Below are positions 2,829-17,992 of a stretch of 42,173 nt of DNA, piece after piece. Each line of letters begins with the position of its first letter. Position 1 is the first letter of the stretch. This DNA comes from Dyella sp. C11 (GTDB lineage: Bacteria > Pseudomonadota > Gammaproteobacteria > Xanthomonadales > Rhodanobacteraceae): contig NZ_QAVX01000005.1 in NCBI RefSeq assembly GCF_003121485.1, forward strand, positions 1 to 42,173, in the 5' to 3' direction. The notes under the pieces are model-generated. The model saw only the letters and a list, made by a program, of their open reading frames with translations. It was not told the DNA's origin and did not search any database. A program made the translations under genes and the position numbers.

Positions 2829-3401
2829 ATGCCGACCGATTCCATCGCCCGTCCGAGAGGTGCCGATGCCGCACGAAGCGCCCGCTTCGAGGCGGTGGTG
2901 GTGCCGTATCTCGACGCGGCCTACAACCTCGCCTACTGGTTGGCGCGCAATCCCACCGACGCGCAGGATGTCGTGCAGGAAGCCATGCTTCGCGCGCTGC
3001 GTTATTTCGACAGTTTCCACGGCGGCGACGCACGCGTGTGGCTGCTCGCCATCGTGCGCAATACGTTCTACACGCTGCGCAGTCGTACACCGCACGACGC
3101 GCTGCACGACGAACTGGATGACGAAACCCACCCGTTGGTGGATGAGGGTCCTTCTCCCGAAACCCTCACCTTGCTCGCTGTCGATGTGGGGGCCCTGCAA
3201 TCGGCGCTGGAACGCATGCCACCGCCACTACGCGAAATCATCGTGCTGCGCGAACTGGAAGAATGCTCATACAAGGAAATTGCCACCATCACGGGGCAAA
3301 AGATCGGTACGGTCATGTCACGCCTTGCACGCGCGCGCGAACGACTGCGCGACGAACTCACCTGCCGGCCCAAGGAGGTACGTCGCCATGATGTGCGATG
3401 A
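2829..3401 (+). CDS. ECF-family RNA polymerase sigma factor
   Basis: A 190-residue alternative sigma factor that would direct RNA polymerase to stress promoters. Region 2 lies at about 20-85, with the acidic DAQDVVQEAMLRAL segment that binds core polymerase and melts the -10. The linker is acidic (about 95-112). Region 4 lies at about 120-175, with CSYKEIATITGQKIGTVMSRL as the helix-turn-helix that reads the -35. No in-frame ATG or GTG lies close downstream, so the ATG at 2829 is chosen although no ribosome site precedes it. The last 14 bases overlap the anti-sigma gene. The divergent exported phosphoesterase and cupredoxin genes share its presumed promoter motif and are its likely targets. 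Confidence 0.93.
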   Translation: MPTDSIARPRGADAARSARFEAVVVPYLDAAYNLAYWLARNPTDAQDVVQEAMLRALRYFDSFHGGDARVWLLAIVRNTFYTLRSRTPHDALHDELDDETHPLVDEGPSPETLTLLAVDVGALQSALERMPPPLREIIVLRELEECSYKEIATITGQKIGTVMSRLARARERLRDELTCRPKEVRRHDVR

Positions 3402-12567: not shown

Positions 12568-12849
12568 TCAATGACCGGCGCTGGAGGAAGAAGCCGGCGC
12601 GCCGCTCTTCTTCGACTTGTGCTGTTTCTTGTGCTGCGTGCTCTGGGTGGCATCGCTCTTCATCGAATCGCTGCTGGACTTCATGGCGTCCGAGCTGGAC
12701 TTCATGGCATCGGAGCTGGACTTCATCGCGTCCTTGCTGGCGTCCTGGGTCGACTGCGGCGTGGTGTCCTGTGCCATGACGGGAGCCATGGCCATACCGA
12801 ACACGGTGGCGGTCGCGAAGGCGAGTACGGCGTAACGGGAAACTTTCAT
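12568..12849 (-). CDS. Small secreted protein with AMKSSSD heptapeptide repeats
   Basis: A 93-residue protein with a clear signal peptide (about 1-26, ending VMA). Three exact tandem copies of AMKSSSD (41-61) and a partial fourth (SMKSD, 62-66) follow, then a basic tail (KKQHKSKKSG) and a Ser-rich end. The DNA repeat unit is 21 bases. It resembles the short exported Met/Lys/Asp pentapeptide-repeat (MxKDx) proteins of proteobacteria, whose function is unclear. GGAGAT precedes the ATG at 12849, and a strong terminator follows. It appears to be a single-gene transcript. The open frame upstream to 13029 is not supported by a start signal. Confidence 0.8.
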   Translation of the reverse strand: MKVSRYAVLAFATATVFGMAMAPVMAQDTTPQSTQDASKDAMKSSSDAMKSSSDAMKSSSDSMKSDATQSTQHKKQHKSKKSGAPASSSSAGH

Positions 12850-13273: not shown

Positions 13274-13933
13274 TCACTTCAACGCAGGTTGAAGCAGGCG
13301 CCCGCCCATCAGGGCATTGAGCATCACCACGATGGCCACGGCCATGGCGTGGGTGAGCAAATCCGTGGCGGCCACGGCAAACGCGTGGCAAATCTCCAGC
13401 AACGCCGCCGATGCCGCCGCAGAGGCAAGGCCAATCATGATCGCGGTCAATACCGGCCGCAGCGGGCACGCGCGACGGAGCAGCCAGATCAGCAGCGCCG
13501 ACAGCGGTACCGAAAAGCTGATGATGAAGACGAGGCAATCGCTGGCTTCATTAATCCTGGCGATATGCGCCGACGGACCCAGCCAGTCGTGCAGGCAACC
13601 CAACCCACTGGCCACCACCCAGACCACCAGGCCAGGCAGCGGCAGCAGGCCCCAGCGCCAGGAGCGCCCCGGCACACCCAGCGTGAAGGCAGCCCATGCC
13701 GCACAGATGGCGGTGACCACGGCACCCAGGCCGGCGATGGCGATGTCCGGCGAAGCAATCCAACGCTGCACCATGTGGCTCGCCCCGAAGTGCCACAGCA
13801 GCACCGCCGCCATCACGGCCACCGCCAGCAACCAGCCCAGCGTGCGCCGCCACGGGGGCGGCAGGCGCCGCACCGGCGTGAGCTGCTCGCCCAGCGTCTG
13901 GATCAGTGACTCGGGGGTTCGCATCTCGGACAT
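13274..13933 (-). CDS. nrsF: NrsF-type (DUF1109) membrane anti-sigma factor
   Basis: A 219-residue integral membrane protein with six hydrophobic segments (about 31-48, 62-83, 95-113, 133-150, 160-177 and 190-206). It matches the DUF1109/NrsF family, which negatively regulates SigF-type ECF factors. Caulobacter NrsF needs two cysteines (131 and 181) to sense dichromate or cadmium; C133 (SDCLVF) and C182 (EICHAF) stand at nearly the same positions here. The start at 13933 lies five bases after the sigma stop, so the pair forms one operon. The family call is strong; the inducer is inferred. Confidence 0.9.
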   Translation of the reverse strand: MSEMRTPESLIQTLGEQLTPVRRLPPPWRRTLGWLLAVAVMAAVLLWHFGASHMVQRWIASPDIAIAGLGAVVTAICAAWAAFTLGVPGRSWRWGLLPLPGLVVWVVASGLGCLHDWLGPSAHIARINEASDCLVFIISFSVPLSALLIWLLRRACPLRPVLTAIMIGLASAAASAALLEICHAFAVAATDLLTHAMAVAIVVMLNALMGGRLLQPALK

Positions 13934-13938
13934 GATGC

Positions 13939-14598
13939 TCAGGGTTCTCCGTGGAAACGCGAACGCAGCGCCTTCATCGCGCGATGCAGGTTGACCTTCA
14001 GTGCCCCCGCCTGGCGCCCCGTGTGTTCGGATGCTTCTGCCAGTGAACGCTCCTGCAGACCCAATTGCTCCACGGCTTCGCGCTGGCCGGGCGGCAGCGA
14101 TGCAATCGCCTCGCGCAATCGCCGGGCTTCCTGCTCGCGTTCCGTGGCAGCGGTGGCATCGTCTTTGTCGGGGTGCATGTCGTAAGCGTGCTCGTCGTGC
14201 ACTTCGCGCTGACCGCGTCGGCCCTGGCTGCGCAGCGCGTCGATCGCACGTCGCCCCGCCAGCGCCGATATCCATGCGTCGTACGAACGCGAGGGATCGT
14301 AGGTGTGACGAACCCGATGCACGGTGAGCAGCGTCTCCTGCACCACGTCGTCGACGGCATCGGGCAAGACACCCTGACGCCGCGCCGCCATGCGGATCAA
14401 CGGCACGGACGCCGCCAGCACACGCTCGTACGCCCGCCGGTCGCCGCCCTGGGCTGCCGCCATCCACGCCGCGCGCTGACGCTCCTGCGTGTCGACAGTG
14501 GGGGCAGCAGCATCGGTCACGATCGGATAGGTCCTATCCCGGCGGGAAAGGACGCTATTCAGACCCATGGTGGCAGGCGCGGTCAAGCTGGCGGTCAT
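13939..14598 (-). CDS. sigF: SigF-type ECF RNA polymerase sigma factor (ECF16-like)
   Basis: An ECF sigma factor encoded directly before its presumed NrsF anti-sigma factor. Region 2 carries VDDVVQETLLTVHRVRHTYD and the SYDAWISALAGRRAIDALR melting segment. Region 4 (about 160-215) carries LPPGQREAVEQLGLQERSLAEASEHTGRQAGALKVNL. The start is uncertain. ATG at 14598 (219 residues) is used, but ATG at 14568 and GTG at 14520 (193 residues, closer to the usual family length) are possible, and none has a strong ribosome site. GTAACC-N16-CGAA upstream (14655-14630) exactly fits the Caulobacter SigF promoter, implying autoregulation. The same motif precedes dipZ. Confidence 0.9.
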   Translation of the reverse strand: MTASLTAPATMGLNSVLSRRDRTYPIVTDAAAPTVDTQERQRAAWMAAAQGGDRRAYERVLAASVPLIRMAARRQGVLPDAVDDVVQETLLTVHRVRHTYDPSRSYDAWISALAGRRAIDALRSQGRRGQREVHDEHAYDMHPDKDDATAATEREQEARRLREAIASLPPGQREAVEQLGLQERSLAEASEHTGRQAGALKVNLHRAMKALRSRFHGEP

Positions 14599-14629
14599 AA
14601 AGGAGCATCGCTGAGGCTCTCCTCTTGCA

Positions 14630-14655
14630 TTCGCCAGCCAATGACGAGGGGTTAC
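14630..14655 (-). promoter_or_regulatory. SigF-type promoter of sigF-nrsF
   Basis: On the minus strand GTAACC (14655-14650), 16 bases, then CGAA (14633-14630). This is the consensus reported for Caulobacter SigF promoters. Transcription would begin near 14623, about 25 bases before the ATG at 14598. Confidence 0.75.
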
Positions 14656-14819
14656 TTCGGCAGCGCTGCTTCTCCCTGTCCGGCGCCGAGGCTTCCCCAA
14701 AAAACCGCAGCCTCAGAGCTTTTCAGAGCGCTCCAATAGCCCTGATTTCCTTTCGACTGGCCTAATCCGGGCCCGGCTCTCCCCCCGAGTCGAATCATTA
14801 CCCGTCGCTAGGAAAGCCC

Positions 14820-15476
14820 ATGAAGAAGACCCTTTTGACCTTGGCATTCGCTGCCTTGATCGCCCCCATCACCGCTCAAGCCACCGAGGCCAATGGCATC
14901 GGCTACACGTACGTGCAGCTCGACTATGTCAACGCCAATCAGACAGGCCATGGCACTTTGTCCGACGGCGCCACGCTCAACGGCTCCTTCCAGTTTGCAG
15001 ACAACTTCCACGTCTTTGGCAGCTACAGCAGCCTTAGCTACAGGGACTCGTTTCTGCAGGACACGGCTGATCTCTATGGTCTGAATGTCTACAACACGAG
15101 CGGTACTGAAAAGCCGTGGTCGCTGGGTTTTGGCTACGCCGCCGCCATCGGCAATCGTGCCGACTGGGTCACGCAGCTGTCCTATACCCACGACAACATC
15201 AAGTTTCGTGGCTGCGTTGACACCTGGGGCTGCTTCAGCTCACGCGATACGGCCAACGTCTGGACCATCAACACAGGCGTGCAGGGCCGCGTCTTCGACA
15301 ACCTCACGGCAAACGCCTATGTCGGTTACAGCAATGCGGGCCGCCACGATGACAACGTCTTCGGTGACTTCGGCATGGTCTACAGCTTCAACAAGACCTG
15401 GGCCATGCACGGCGGCGTACGCGTGAACAGCCTCAGCCACGAGCTGTACAGCGTTGGCGTTCGCGCCAGCTTCTGA
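14820..15476 (+). CDS. Ax21-like outer-membrane beta-barrel protein
   Basis: A 218-residue exported protein. The signal peptide is MKKTLLTLAFAALIAPITA with cleavage near QA-TE (about 21). Alternating amphipathic strands follow (YTYVQLDYV, FHVFGSYSSL, WSLGFGYAAAI, NLTANAYVGYS), ending in the C-terminal Phe typical of outer-membrane barrels. It matches the Ax21 family of Xanthomonadales. That family was once proposed as a quorum signal, but I regard it simply as an outer-membrane or vesicle protein. Two cysteines (GCVDTWGC) may form a disulfide. AGGAAA precedes the ATG, and a strong terminator follows at 15499. It lies between divergent sigF and dipZ, but no SigF-type promoter was seen directly upstream. 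Confidence 0.85.
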   Translation: MKKTLLTLAFAALIAPITAQATEANGIGYTYVQLDYVNANQTGHGTLSDGATLNGSFQFADNFHVFGSYSSLSYRDSFLQDTADLYGLNVYNTSGTEKPWSLGFGYAAAIGNRADWVTQLSYTHDNIKFRGCVDTWGCFSSRDTANVWTINTGVQGRVFDNLTANAYVGYSNAGRHDDNVFGDFGMVYSFNKTWAMHGGVRVNSLSHELYSVGVRASF

Positions 15477-15498
15477 TCTTCCCTGGTTCATCCCAAAG

Positions 15499-15526
15499 GC
15501 CCGGCTGACACCGGGCTTTTTTTATT
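15499..15526 (+). terminator. Rho-independent terminator of the Ax21-like gene
   Basis: GCCCGG, a short loop and CCGGGC are followed by seven T residues. It lies 22 bases after the stop codon and separates this gene from the dipZ promoter. Confidence 0.9.
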
Positions 15527-15568
15527 TGCAAAACAAAGCCGGGAACGGCGTGGGTAGTGAAGGCAGAT

Positions 15569-15594
15569 GTAACCTTGGATGGGTCTGCGACGAA
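15569..15594 (+). promoter_or_regulatory. SigF-type promoter of dipZ-msrB
   Basis: GTAACC (15569-15574), exactly 16 bases, then CGAA (15591-15594). It is identical in hexamer, spacing and -10 to the motif before sigF. The start of transcription would be near 15600, about 27 bases before the dipZ ATG. I saw no third exact copy between genes, but this was by eye. Confidence 0.72.
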
Positions 15595-15626
15595 AGACAC
15601 CATGACCCTCCACGGACATCGCACCC

Positions 15627-17345
15627 ATGCTTGTGCTGATCCTTGCCTACCTCGGTGGCGTATTCACCATCCTGAGTCCGTGCATCCTGCCGGTGCTCCC
15701 GTTCGTTTTTGCGCGGGCAGACCGCCCCTTCGCACGTAACGGGCTACCCATGCTGGTTGGTATGGCGCTGACCTTCGCGTTGGTCGCCACACTGGCTGCC
15801 GTTGGTGGCAGTTGGGCCATCCAGGCCAATCAATACGGCCGCGTGGTCGCAATGGTGGTGTTGGCTGTCCTGGGGTTGACGCTGCTTTCGACGCATCTGG
15901 CCGAATGGATCAGCCGCCCGTTCGTGGCGTTGGGCAACCGGCTTTCCCAACGTTCCGGGGATGACGATTCGGTGTGGTCGGCGGCAGGCCTGGGTGTCGC
16001 CACGGGACTGCTGTGGGCGCCGTGCGCTGGCCCCATCCTTGGGCTGCTGCTCACCGGCGCCGCGCTCAATGGCGCGAGCTTCCAGACATCCCTGCTGTTG
16101 CTGACGTATGCACTGGGCGCCGCCACCTCGCTGGCATTGGCGCTGGTGATTGGCGGGCGCGTCTTTTCACTGATGAAGCGCTCGCTGGGCGCTGGCGAAT
16201 GGGTACGTCGTGCGTTGGGCGTGCTGGTACTTGCGGGCGTGGTCGCGATTGCACTGGGCCTGGATACGGGCGTGCTCACGCGCGTCTCGCTGGCCAGCAC
16301 GGGCGGCATCGAACAGAAGCTGATCGAAGCGGTGCGTCCTGCGCCGAAGCCACAACCCGTGGTGAAGCAAGGCGAGCCGCTTCCCGTGGAAGGCGAGCTG
16401 CCGTCGCTGGATGGCGCAACGCAATGGTTCAACACGCCGCCGCTCACCGCGCAGTCGCTGCGCGGCAAGGTGGTGCTGGTCGATTTCTGGACATATTCCT
16501 GCATCAACTGCATCCGCGCCCTGCCCTACGTGCGCGCCTGGGCAGACAAGTACAAGGATCATGGCCTCGTGATCATCGGCGTGCATGCGCCGGAATTCGC
16601 CTTCGAAAAAGACCCGCAAAACGTCGCCAAGGCCATCAAGGACCTGGGCGTCGACTATCCCGTCGCGCTCGACAACGACTACGCCATCTGGAAGGGCTTC
16701 AACAACGAATACTGGCCGGCGCATTACTTCATCGATCCGCAAGGGCGCATTCGTCATCACCACTTCGGTGAAGGCGAGTACGAACAAAGCGAGGACGTGA
16801 TTCGCCAGCTGCTGACCGAAGCGGGACAGAAGAATCTCCCGGGCGGTTACGTGCAGCCTGGTGCACAGGGCGCGGAAGCGGCGGGCTCCGGTGACGTGAT
16901 GCGCTCGCCGGAAACCTACGTGGGTTACGCGCGCGCAGAAAACTTTGCCGGCGGCAAAGTGGCACACGACGATGCATGGACCTATCACGCGCCAGAGTCG
17001 CTGATGGCCAATCAATGGGCATTGAGCGGACGCTGGGTGGTGCGTGACGAAAACGCCCAACTGGACAAGGCCAATGGCAGCATCGTGTACCGCTTCCGCG
17101 GCCGCGACCTTCACCTGGTGCTCGGACCCAACAGCGACGGCAAGCCCGTGCGTTTCCGCGTCACCATCGATGGCAAGGCGCCCGGCGCCGATCACGGCAT
17201 GGATACCGATGCCGACGGCAATGGCACGGTGACATCGCAGCGCCTCTACCAGCTCGTCCGCCAGGCCAATGGCACCGGCGAACGCACTTTCGAAATCACC
17301 TTTCTCGATCCGGGTGTCCAGGCCTACGCCTTTACGTTTGGCTGA
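15627..17345 (+). CDS. dipZ: DipZ: CcdA-type electron transporter fused to thioredoxin and C-terminal domain
   Basis: A 572-residue inner-membrane protein that would carry reducing power from cytoplasmic thioredoxin to the periplasm. The CcdA/DsbD-type domain (about 1-225, six or more helices) has redox cysteines C19 (LSPCILPV) and C133 (LWAPCAGP). A TlpA-like thioredoxin domain follows (about 255-400) with active site C292-I-N-C295. The third part (about 430-572) is the beta-sandwich domain found in DipZ proteins. msrB begins 29 bases downstream, and DipZ is a plausible reductant for that exported enzyme. A SigF-type promoter lies upstream. The ribosome site is weak. Confidence 0.93.
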   Translation: MLVLILAYLGGVFTILSPCILPVLPFVFARADRPFARNGLPMLVGMALTFALVATLAAVGGSWAIQANQYGRVVAMVVLAVLGLTLLSTHLAEWISRPFVALGNRLSQRSGDDDSVWSAAGLGVATGLLWAPCAGPILGLLLTGAALNGASFQTSLLLLTYALGAATSLALALVIGGRVFSLMKRSLGAGEWVRRALGVLVLAGVVAIALGLDTGVLTRVSLASTGGIEQKLIEAVRPAPKPQPVVKQGEPLPVEGELPSLDGATQWFNTPPLTAQSLRGKVVLVDFWTYSCINCIRALPYVRAWADKYKDHGLVIIGVHAPEFAFEKDPQNVAKAIKDLGVDYPVALDNDYAIWKGFNNEYWPAHYFIDPQGRIRHHHFGEGEYEQSEDVIRQLLTEAGQKNLPGGYVQPGAQGAEAAGSGDVMRSPETYVGYARAENFAGGKVAHDDAWTYHAPESLMANQWALSGRWVVRDENAQLDKANGSIVYRFRGRDLHLVLGPNSDGKPVRFRVTIDGKAPGADHGMDTDADGNGTVTSQRLYQLVRQANGTGERTFEITFLDPGVQAYAFTFG

Positions 17346-17374
17346 TTCACGCCACTAACCTCACGGAGGTTGCC

Positions 17375-17992
17375 ATGTCCCGCACACAGGACATCGTGAA
17401 ACTGGAGCGTCGCCGCTTTCTGCGCGCGGCGCTGACAGGAGGAGCTGTTGCTGCCATCGGAGGCTTTGCTTTTCCCACGCTGATGAAGCGTGGATCACTG
17501 GGTGGAACCGCCATGGCAGCCACGCCGGCCGCCGCCGGTGGCGAGGTGCTGCTGATGTGCTTCGCCGATGACGGGCACAAGCTGGGGCCGTGTCATGTAC
17601 CCAAGCTGGTACTCAACGATGCGCAATGGCATGAGCGCCTGAGTGACGACCAGTATTACGTGATGCGTCGTGCCGGCACGGAGCGGGCATTCAGTGGTCC
17701 GCATGAAAAGACCGGCGCCGGCCTGTACCGCTGCCCCGCCTGCGATACCGCCTTGTTCGATGCCGCCACGCAATTCGATTCGGGCACGGGCTGGCCGAGT
17801 TTCTGGCAGCCGATCGCAAAACAGAACGTCACTGAGAAGCGTGACACGGCCTTCGGCATGGAACGCATCGCGGTGAGTTGCGCCGGTTGCGACAGCCACC
17901 TGGGCCATGTGTTTGACGATGGTCCGGCACCCACGGGACTGCGCTATTGCATGAACTCGGTAGCGATGAGGTTCGTGCCGAGAACGTCGTAA
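17375..17992 (+). CDS. msrB: Tat-exported peptide-methionine (R)-S-oxide reductase
   Basis: A 205-residue MsrB that reduces the R form of methionine sulfoxide in proteins. A twin-arginine signal (RRRFLR, 12-17, then a hydrophobic Ala/Gly stretch) predicts periplasmic export of the folded enzyme. The MsrB core carries zinc cysteines C120/C123 (CPACD) and the CAGCDSHLGH pair, the substrate segment GTGWPSFW, and the catalytic C192 in RYCMNSVAMRF. Typical MsrB proteins are cytoplasmic and shorter. GGAGG precedes the ATG. It is the second gene of the dipZ operon, whose product can supply electrons, and is thus predicted to be under SigF-type control. Confidence 0.95.
   Translation: MSRTQDIVKLERRRFLRAALTGGAVAAIGGFAFPTLMKRGSLGGTAMAATPAAAGGEVLLMCFADDGHKLGPCHVPKLVLNDAQWHERLSDDQYYVMRRAGTERAFSGPHEKTGAGLYRCPACDTALFDAATQFDSGTGWPSFWQPIAKQNVTEKRDTAFGMERIAVSCAGCDSHLGHVFDDGPAPTGLRYCMNSVAMRFVPRTS

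Follow-up and report, generated by a model that had tools for sequence, protein, structure and literature searches.

A predicted SigF/NrsF regulon that uses thiols to repair oxidized methionine in the envelope of Dyella and its relatives

What does an extracytoplasmic function (ECF) sigma factor control when its gene lies beside those of a thiol electron relay and a methionine sulfoxide reductase (Msr), and what releases it? The question is raised by a stretch of 42,173 nucleotides (nt), here called the window, from a Dyella-type genome of 4.73 Mb whose closest named relatives are Dyella, and it concerns the neighboring gene pairs sigF-nrsF and dipZ-msrB. An earlier note on this DNA had pointed to the motif GTAACC-N16-CGAA ahead of both pairs and proposed that metal or oxidant stress, sensed by two NrsF cysteines, frees SigF to make the DipZ relay and an exported MsrB. 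From comparisons with related genomes, we give a probability of roughly 80% to the reading that the SigF/NrsF regulon commands thiol-based repair of envelope methionine sulfoxide and is released by oxidant via the NrsF cysteines.

A shared, conserved promoter motif

The features on which this reading rests are as follows.

13274..13933, minus strand: nrsF, anti-sigma factor gene (219 aa; PF06532)
13939..14598, minus strand: sigF, ECF sigma factor gene of ECF16/SigF type (219 aa from the ATG at 14598; later starts are possible)
14630..14655, minus strand: predicted SigF-type promoter of sigF-nrsF, GTAACC-N16-CGAA, exact, 31 nt 5' of the ATG
15569..15594, plus strand: predicted SigF-type promoter of dipZ-msrB, GTAACC-N16-CGAA, exact, 32 nt 5' of the ATG
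15627..17345, plus strand: dipZ, encoding a DsbD-type membrane domain, a periplasmic thioredoxin-like domain and a Thioredoxin_10 C-terminal domain
17375..17992, plus strand: msrB, methionine-R-sulfoxide reductase gene (SelR; twin-arginine translocation (Tat)-like N-terminus RRRFLRA)

Both copies of the motif are exact, as the earlier note had said, and they equal the consensus stated for Caulobacter SigF (PMC3511200). These are the only two matches in the window, where 0.03 would be expected, and none of 100 shuffled sequences gave two.

Our main comparison used the best 80 of 155 confirmed nrsF loci, from Dyella, Rhodanobacter, Frateuria, Fulvimonas and related metagenome bins. All 80 contain sigF, and GTAACn-N16-CGAA lies 5' of it in every one (48 exact); the motif is likewise found 5' of dipZ in each of the 76 loci holding that gene. 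In 75 of these it is within 200 nt, as 65 exact matches, 7 with an altered sixth base and 3 with a spacing of 15 or 17; the 76th locus, L216, has an exact site about 195 nt upstream. The GTAAC and CGAA positions each hold about 2 bits of information in the alignment, spacer positions at most 1 bit, and the distance from site to start codon is similar among sites. With 2159 other permutations of the boxes, the best decoy matched 3 of 80 sigF and 10 of 76 dipZ upstream regions, and 3 of 27 and 1 of 18 upstream regions, respectively, for the exported msrA and RclR-like genes described below. On the strength of conservation and of these decoys we reject an origin of the motif by chance or base composition.

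A second set, of 43 loci, includes the window and overlaps the 80 loci, so it is not independent of them. Of its members, 41 have the sigF site, and all 36 with dipZ have the dipZ site; the two loci without a sigF site, L059 and L060, are the diverged loci of genomes G082 and G025. None of nine control loci has a SigF site upstream, whether dipZ paralogues in NrsF genomes (L108 and L109) or, in genomes lacking NrsF, dipZ (L110-L113) and Tat-type msrB (L114-L116). The proposal that SigF controls both operons is supported by comparison, with sites at every sigF and dipZ gene of the main set and at none of the seven dipZ or msrB loci from NrsF-less genomes, and the two window sites are well supported as predicted SigF promoters of sigF-nrsF and dipZ-msrB.

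SigF, NrsF and the candidate sensor cysteines

SigF matches Sigma70_r2 and Sigma70_r4_2 over their cut-offs, with no other family at cut-off. Its gene is directly followed by nrsF, whose product is the sole PF06532 match in the genome (E 1.2e-20, 74.7 bits against a cut-off of 26.8) and has six long membrane helices in a predicted model. With only sigma-70 regions 2 and 4, an NrsF/DUF1109 partner and, ahead of the sigma gene itself, a site of the consensus form tGTAACc-N16-CGAA (PMC3420878), SigF and NrsF are best read as an ECF16-type sigma/anti-sigma pair.

Window NrsF has cysteines at positions 77, 113, 133, 156 and 182. The earlier note had singled out C133 and C182, and their presence near C131 and C181 of Caulobacter NrsF is confirmed by the sequence and by the published account (PMC3511200). 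As the key pair, they fared unequally: C133 is found in 80 of 80 loci, but C182 is present in 74 and replaced in 6, all of which retain both C133 and C113, the latter being the better kept partner (80/80). The overlapping 43-locus set has C113 in 42, C133 in 43 and C182 in 36.

Across the class, PF06532 is over its cut-off in 15 of 369 genomes, including that of the window, and an equivalent of C133 is present in all 14 other loci. Among 11 class NrsF proteins that could be closely aligned, the second cysteine directly follows a histidine in L289-L293, one residue off from C182; L296 and L299 have a cysteine there without the histidine. The second cysteine is missing from L297 and L298, and these are the two proteins that have C113. 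L294 has one cysteine in total, contradicting a simple two-cysteine rule. In the AlphaFold2 (AF2) model of window NrsF, made from 25 sequences (mean predicted local distance difference test score 75.2, predicted template modeling score 0.72), helix 99-118 has C113 close to its end, helix 127-152 begins close to C133, and C182 ends helix 160-182, which would put all three on one membrane face, periplasmic if the N-terminus is inside. Given the retention of C113 and C133, the loss of C182 in 6 of 80 loci and this placement, C113-C133 may be the working pair in this NrsF. These findings question which NrsF cysteines sense stress in ECF16 systems.

The gene content of the 14 other gammaproteobacterial loci differs as well: six have an MNIO gene near sigF, two a molybdopterin-type MsrP relative (27-28% identity) and six neither. 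DipZ-MsrB is found in none of the 14, with a CcdA-like stretch (25-26% identity) in two.

DipZ and MsrB as a putative envelope repair pair

DipZ matches DsbD_TM, AhpC-TSA/Redoxin and Thioredoxin_10. Its C19, C133, C292 and C295 are present in all 73 full-length copies, and this comparison supports the suggestion that it acts as an electron relay. MsrB matches SelR (E 2.3e-45) and is over the cut-off of TIGR00357; C192 and the CxxC pairs 120/123 and 169/172, which we take to be of catalytic and zinc-binding type, respectively, are kept in all 74 full-length copies. Export of MsrB had been proposed, and here the evidence is divided: RR-x-[FLM]-[LIVMA] is near the N-terminus in 74 of 74 copies, but Pfam TAT_signal scores 13.9 bits, under its 22.7-bit cut-off.

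The resolving cysteine of MsrB usually sits in an SGCGWPSF-type motif. Window MsrB reads SGTGWPSF, with no cysteine at that position, so the enzyme must be reduced either by a different cysteine or directly by DipZ. A possible resolving or relay pair is formed by the N-terminal cysteines C62 (41 of 74 copies) and C73 (40 of 74), and in the overlapping locus set four loci lose both together. An independent tie among msrB, dipZ and exported msrA comes from a second family, in which three genomes without NrsF have the three genes in a row.

A wider predicted regulon

The earlier note had called for a genome scan with the motif, and the outcome is mixed. The window's genome (G000) holds 10 exact N16 matches. 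Six sit where a promoter would be and are found again in relatives, 3 are inside open reading frames (ORFs) with no start of an ORF longer than 70 aa within 150 nt downstream, and the remaining one, C2:31213, precedes a 485-aa ORF; the check in relatives left out C2:31213 and the 11 relaxed matches (altered sixth base). With 6 of 10 exact matches at conserved promoters, we reject the motif as a stand-alone genome predictor. Besides the two window promoters, four genes carry exact SigF-type sites.

G000:C1:83834: exported lipoprotein MsrA, exact site, conserved
G000:C10:66174: cytosolic MsrA, exact site
G000:C11:85998: AraC-type, RclR-like regulator, exact site
G000:C7:42431: DUF308-like membrane protein (24 of the 25 bits needed for DUF308), exact site

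The target set dipZ-msrB is supported in both members but too narrow, and the predicted circuit is larger than sigF-nrsF and dipZ-msrB by these four genes. Orthologues of each were sought in 61 genomes, a set that takes in NrsF genomes up to G036. Exported msrA has the strongest record, with an exact site in all 28 NrsF genomes read (G025 and G082, with diverged NrsF, were left out, and one contig-edge locus was placed by hand), no site in the two NrsF-less genomes read (G029 and G030; among the other NrsF-less genomes of this set the reading extended to the rows of G072 and G081), and a lipobox pattern in 27 of the 28 copies. Among NCBIfam models the product of the RclR-like gene scores best against RclR (E 1.3e-38), though with 132.9 bits where 400 are required. 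A close orthologue is present in 18 NrsF genomes, and 17 of them have the site: 13 exact, 1 with an altered sixth base and 3 with a spacing of 15 or 17. The exception is G014, where the gene occurs twice and the copy read has no site; NrsF-less G023 has none either. For cytosolic msrA, none of nine NrsF-less genomes has the site.

The RclR-like gene lies 3' of an MNIO-DUF2063 bufferin-type operon (L303:2051-6915, equal to G000:C11:85050-89915), and its SigF site falls within the 3' end of DUF2063. Divergent from it are genes of DoxX-like, thioredoxin-like (both labeled by eye) and CcdA-like type. At L306, the DUF308-like gene (2842-3393, minus strand) has a SigF site just upstream, followed by the palindrome ACCAACTGGTTGGT, which is perhaps the operator of a second regulator.

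A probable replacement of MsrP by DipZ

The window's genome has no match to MsrP (NF003767). Among 101 genomes, MsrP is over its curated cut-off in 32. Full-length DipZ is present in 42 genomes (complete in 41 readings, and split between contigs in G036), and MsrP is in 0 of these 42 versus 32 of the 59 others; by genus it is in 0 of 15 with DipZ versus 22 of 36 (Fisher p 2.7e-5), though it counts against the argument that both the counts and the test ignore descent. Only 3 of 44 genomes with an NrsF match have MsrP. In two of these, G025 and G082, NrsF is diverged (28 and 41% identity, respectively), and in the third, G085, the NrsF match reaches only 20.8 bits; full-length DipZ is found in none of them. 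MsrP is also absent from the three NrsF-less genomes with the msrB-dipZ-exported msrA row. Full-length DipZ and true molybdenum MsrP exclude each other in the genomes compared, and we infer that the thiol pathway stands in for MsrP. The prediction that follows is that a thiol pathway can replace molybdenum MsrPQ in the envelope, and genomes with either DipZ or MsrP provide a natural experiment.

Proposed circuit and competing explanations

In the mechanism that we propose, NrsF would hold SigF at the inner membrane until an oxidant, probably chlorine species or peroxide, acts on cysteines near its periplasmic face, C133 together with C113 and/or C182. Released SigF would then transcribe from GTAACC-N16-CGAA its own operon, dipZ-msrB and the exported lipoprotein msrA and, in the window's genome, also cytosolic msrA and the genes for the RclR-like regulator and the DUF308 protein. 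DipZ would take up electrons from thioredoxin in the cytosol and pass them, by way of its membrane domain, to its own periplasmic thioredoxin domain, which would re-reduce Tat-exported MsrB, acting on R-sulfoxide, and probably also lipoprotein MsrA, acting on S-sulfoxide; the latter step is suggested by the co-regulation of the two genes and by the shared row in NrsF-less genomes. Together, MsrB, MsrA and DipZ would form a thiol-based counterpart to the molybdenum MsrPQ system found in other bacteria. We hold more tentatively, and at somewhat less than even odds, a further account, in which an ECF16 sigma factor of the Rhodanobacteraceae was rewired from bufferin or molybdenum targets to a complete thiol envelope pathway, with DipZ feeding a Tat MsrB and a lipoprotein MsrA of opposite stereochemistry, MsrPQ displaced, and NrsF sensing by a new C113-C133 pair that flanks one periplasmic loop, so that the classical second cysteine is dispensable.

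The signal had been left as metal or oxidant, and gene content, in the form of methionine sulfoxide reductases and an RclR-like regulator, makes oxidant the likelier. A metal-stress circuit, in which chromate or cadmium would bind to the cysteines of NrsF and Msr would mend secondary damage, is unlikely but has points of contact with what is known: the window has the consensus and NrsF family of Caulobacter, with cysteines close to the two that are important there, that system is induced by chromium (as dichromate) and cadmium (PMC3511200), and bufferins, encoded by the type of operon behind which the RclR-like gene lies, bind copper (PMC12452194). The targets differ, however, with Msr enzymes and an RclR-like regulator conserved here in place of the DUF692 (MNIO)/DUF2063/DUF2282/DoxX/YedY genes of Caulobacter (PMC3511200), and the ECF16 factors that do control Msr genes, Bradyrhizobium EcfF and Brucella BcrS, respond to H2O2 and HOCl, respectively (PMC3420878; PMC8315932).

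We consider it improbable that the sites are SigF promoters but that DipZ serves disulfide or cytochrome c housekeeping with MsrB as a passenger. A DsbD/CcdA-type DipZ could serve several periplasmic partners, and L108 and L109 contain a second full-length dipZ with neither a SigF site nor, in the 7.5 kb read, msrB; yet exported msrA, unlinked to dipZ, carries its exact site in every NrsF genome read, and msrB remains behind the site where the row has no dipZ. That the motifs are inherited intergenic DNA or chance occurrences in GC-rich sequence, with another regulator driving dipZ-msrB, is very improbable: the lack of genome-wide enrichment would fit, but the boxes are fixed while the spacers diverge, start-codon distances are similar, decoys are near zero, unlinked genes share the site and the NrsF-less loci read are without it.

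Several observations weigh against the oxidant-released repair regulon that we favor. The relaxed pattern has 21 matches in the genome versus 29 for its reversed control, so conservation of the motif, not its presence, bears the argument. In L055-L057, L212, L237 and L256, msrB is behind a SigF site without dipZ, meaning that DipZ is not always needed or that another CcdA serves. The outer members of the regulon are unevenly kept, with no close RclR-like orthologue in 12 of 30 NrsF genomes searched and the cytosolic msrA site in just 7 of 20 evaluable NrsF genomes; of the 7 genomes that have the DUF308 gene, 4 carry its site, and two with NrsF lack it. MsrP relatives under the cut-off occur in many DipZ genomes, and in one genome with MsrP, G089, a DipZ-like sequence can be read as two neighboring pieces (residues 4-398, 30 and 50% identity) without the C-terminal domain. 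Finally, Caulobacter SigF changes no msrA and is not induced by reactive oxygen species (PMC3511200).

Relation to known circuits

The nearest proven circuit is EcfF/OsrA of Bradyrhizobium japonicum, which responds to H2O2 and resembles the window in its ECF16 sigma factor, its DUF1109/NrsF anti-sigma factor (in which two cysteines are needed), and the autoregulation and Msr regulon that are predicted for the window (PMC3420878). By microarray, that regulon includes three Msr genes, the DsbD-like Bll1027 and the thioredoxin Bll1026, the last two proposed by its authors to reduce periplasmic Msr (PMC3420878). It differs in having a two-protein electron path encoded away from the Msr genes and a motif, GTAAC(g,a)-N14-15-(c,t)CG(t,a), with shorter spacing and a looser -10 element, and in that OsrA is described with just two cysteines, whereas window NrsF has a third conserved one (PMC3420878). 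The window, in turn, has a fused DipZ in an operon with Tat-type MsrB beside sigF, and a lipoprotein MsrA.

An ECF sigma factor over periplasmic thiol Msr is also said to occur in Neisseria (Ecf-msrAB), and in Azospira suillum the gene order is reportedly sigF-nrsF-mrpX-yedY. The latter resembles the window in SigF/NrsF and a periplasmic Msr but has an MsrP-type (YedY) reductase. Next after EcfF/OsrA in likeness is BcrS/AbcS of Brucella melitensis, an HOCl-induced ECF16 pair that likewise has next to it genes for repairing methionine sulfoxide in the envelope (bcrXQP) and for a methionine-rich peptide (PMC8315932). Its reductase is MsrPQ, in contrast to the thiol MsrB/MsrA with DipZ of the window. 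Haemophilus influenzae RpoE2, induced by hypochlorite, controls msrAB, a thioredoxin and ccdA (PMC9404787). This likeness, an ECF sigma factor over periplasmic thiol Msr, CcdA and thioredoxin, is one of target genes; MsrAB is one fused protein, and no NrsF is seen in the accessible part of the description (PMC9404787).

The logic of the circuit is already published, and the novelty of this version lies in its parts. Literature searches on Rhodanobacter, Dyella, DipZ and ECF16 with methionine sulfoxide (reductase), covering mostly papers available without subscription, returned no report of this regulon; ECF16 led back to the Bradyrhizobium and Brucella circuits, DipZ to work on Salmonella CpxR, and Dyella to papers that, judged by title and abstract, are unrelated. 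What the comparison offers is a sequence-defined regulon that is open to testing gene by gene and is conserved in loci of Dyella, Rhodanobacter, Frateuria and Fulvimonas.

Neighboring genes

Two further genes flank the circuit in the window.

14820..15476, plus strand: OmpO/Ax21-like outer-membrane protein gene (218 aa), between sigF and the dipZ promoter
12568..12849, minus strand: gene for a secreted-type methionine-repeat peptide (93 aa, 8.6% Met), downstream of nrsF

The OmpO/Ax21-like ORF matches TIGR04273 (E 2.3e-20, 73.5 bits) under the cut-off of 250. It has no SigF site of its own and is present in 5 of the 80 Rhodanobacteraceae loci, which rules it out as a regulon member and places it outside the conserved circuit.

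A SigF-driven, methionine-rich bait peptide of MrpX type is a feature of Azospira suillum, to which the Brucella paper refers (PMC8315932), whereas no SigF site is found at the window's peptide gene, and we reject that peptide as a SigF target in the window's genome. It contains DAMKSSS repeats, and a similar peptide is found in at least 17 of 19 same-genus loci. Elsewhere, a further SigF site lies within 900 nt after nrsF in 19 of 80 loci, and in 16 of the 80 (L182, L184-L186, L189, L194, L203, L204, L210, L213, L214, L216, L217, L227, L229 and L257) it precedes a secreted-type peptide with 11-18% Met. In L247, the peptide behind the post-nrsF site is presumably bufferin-like.

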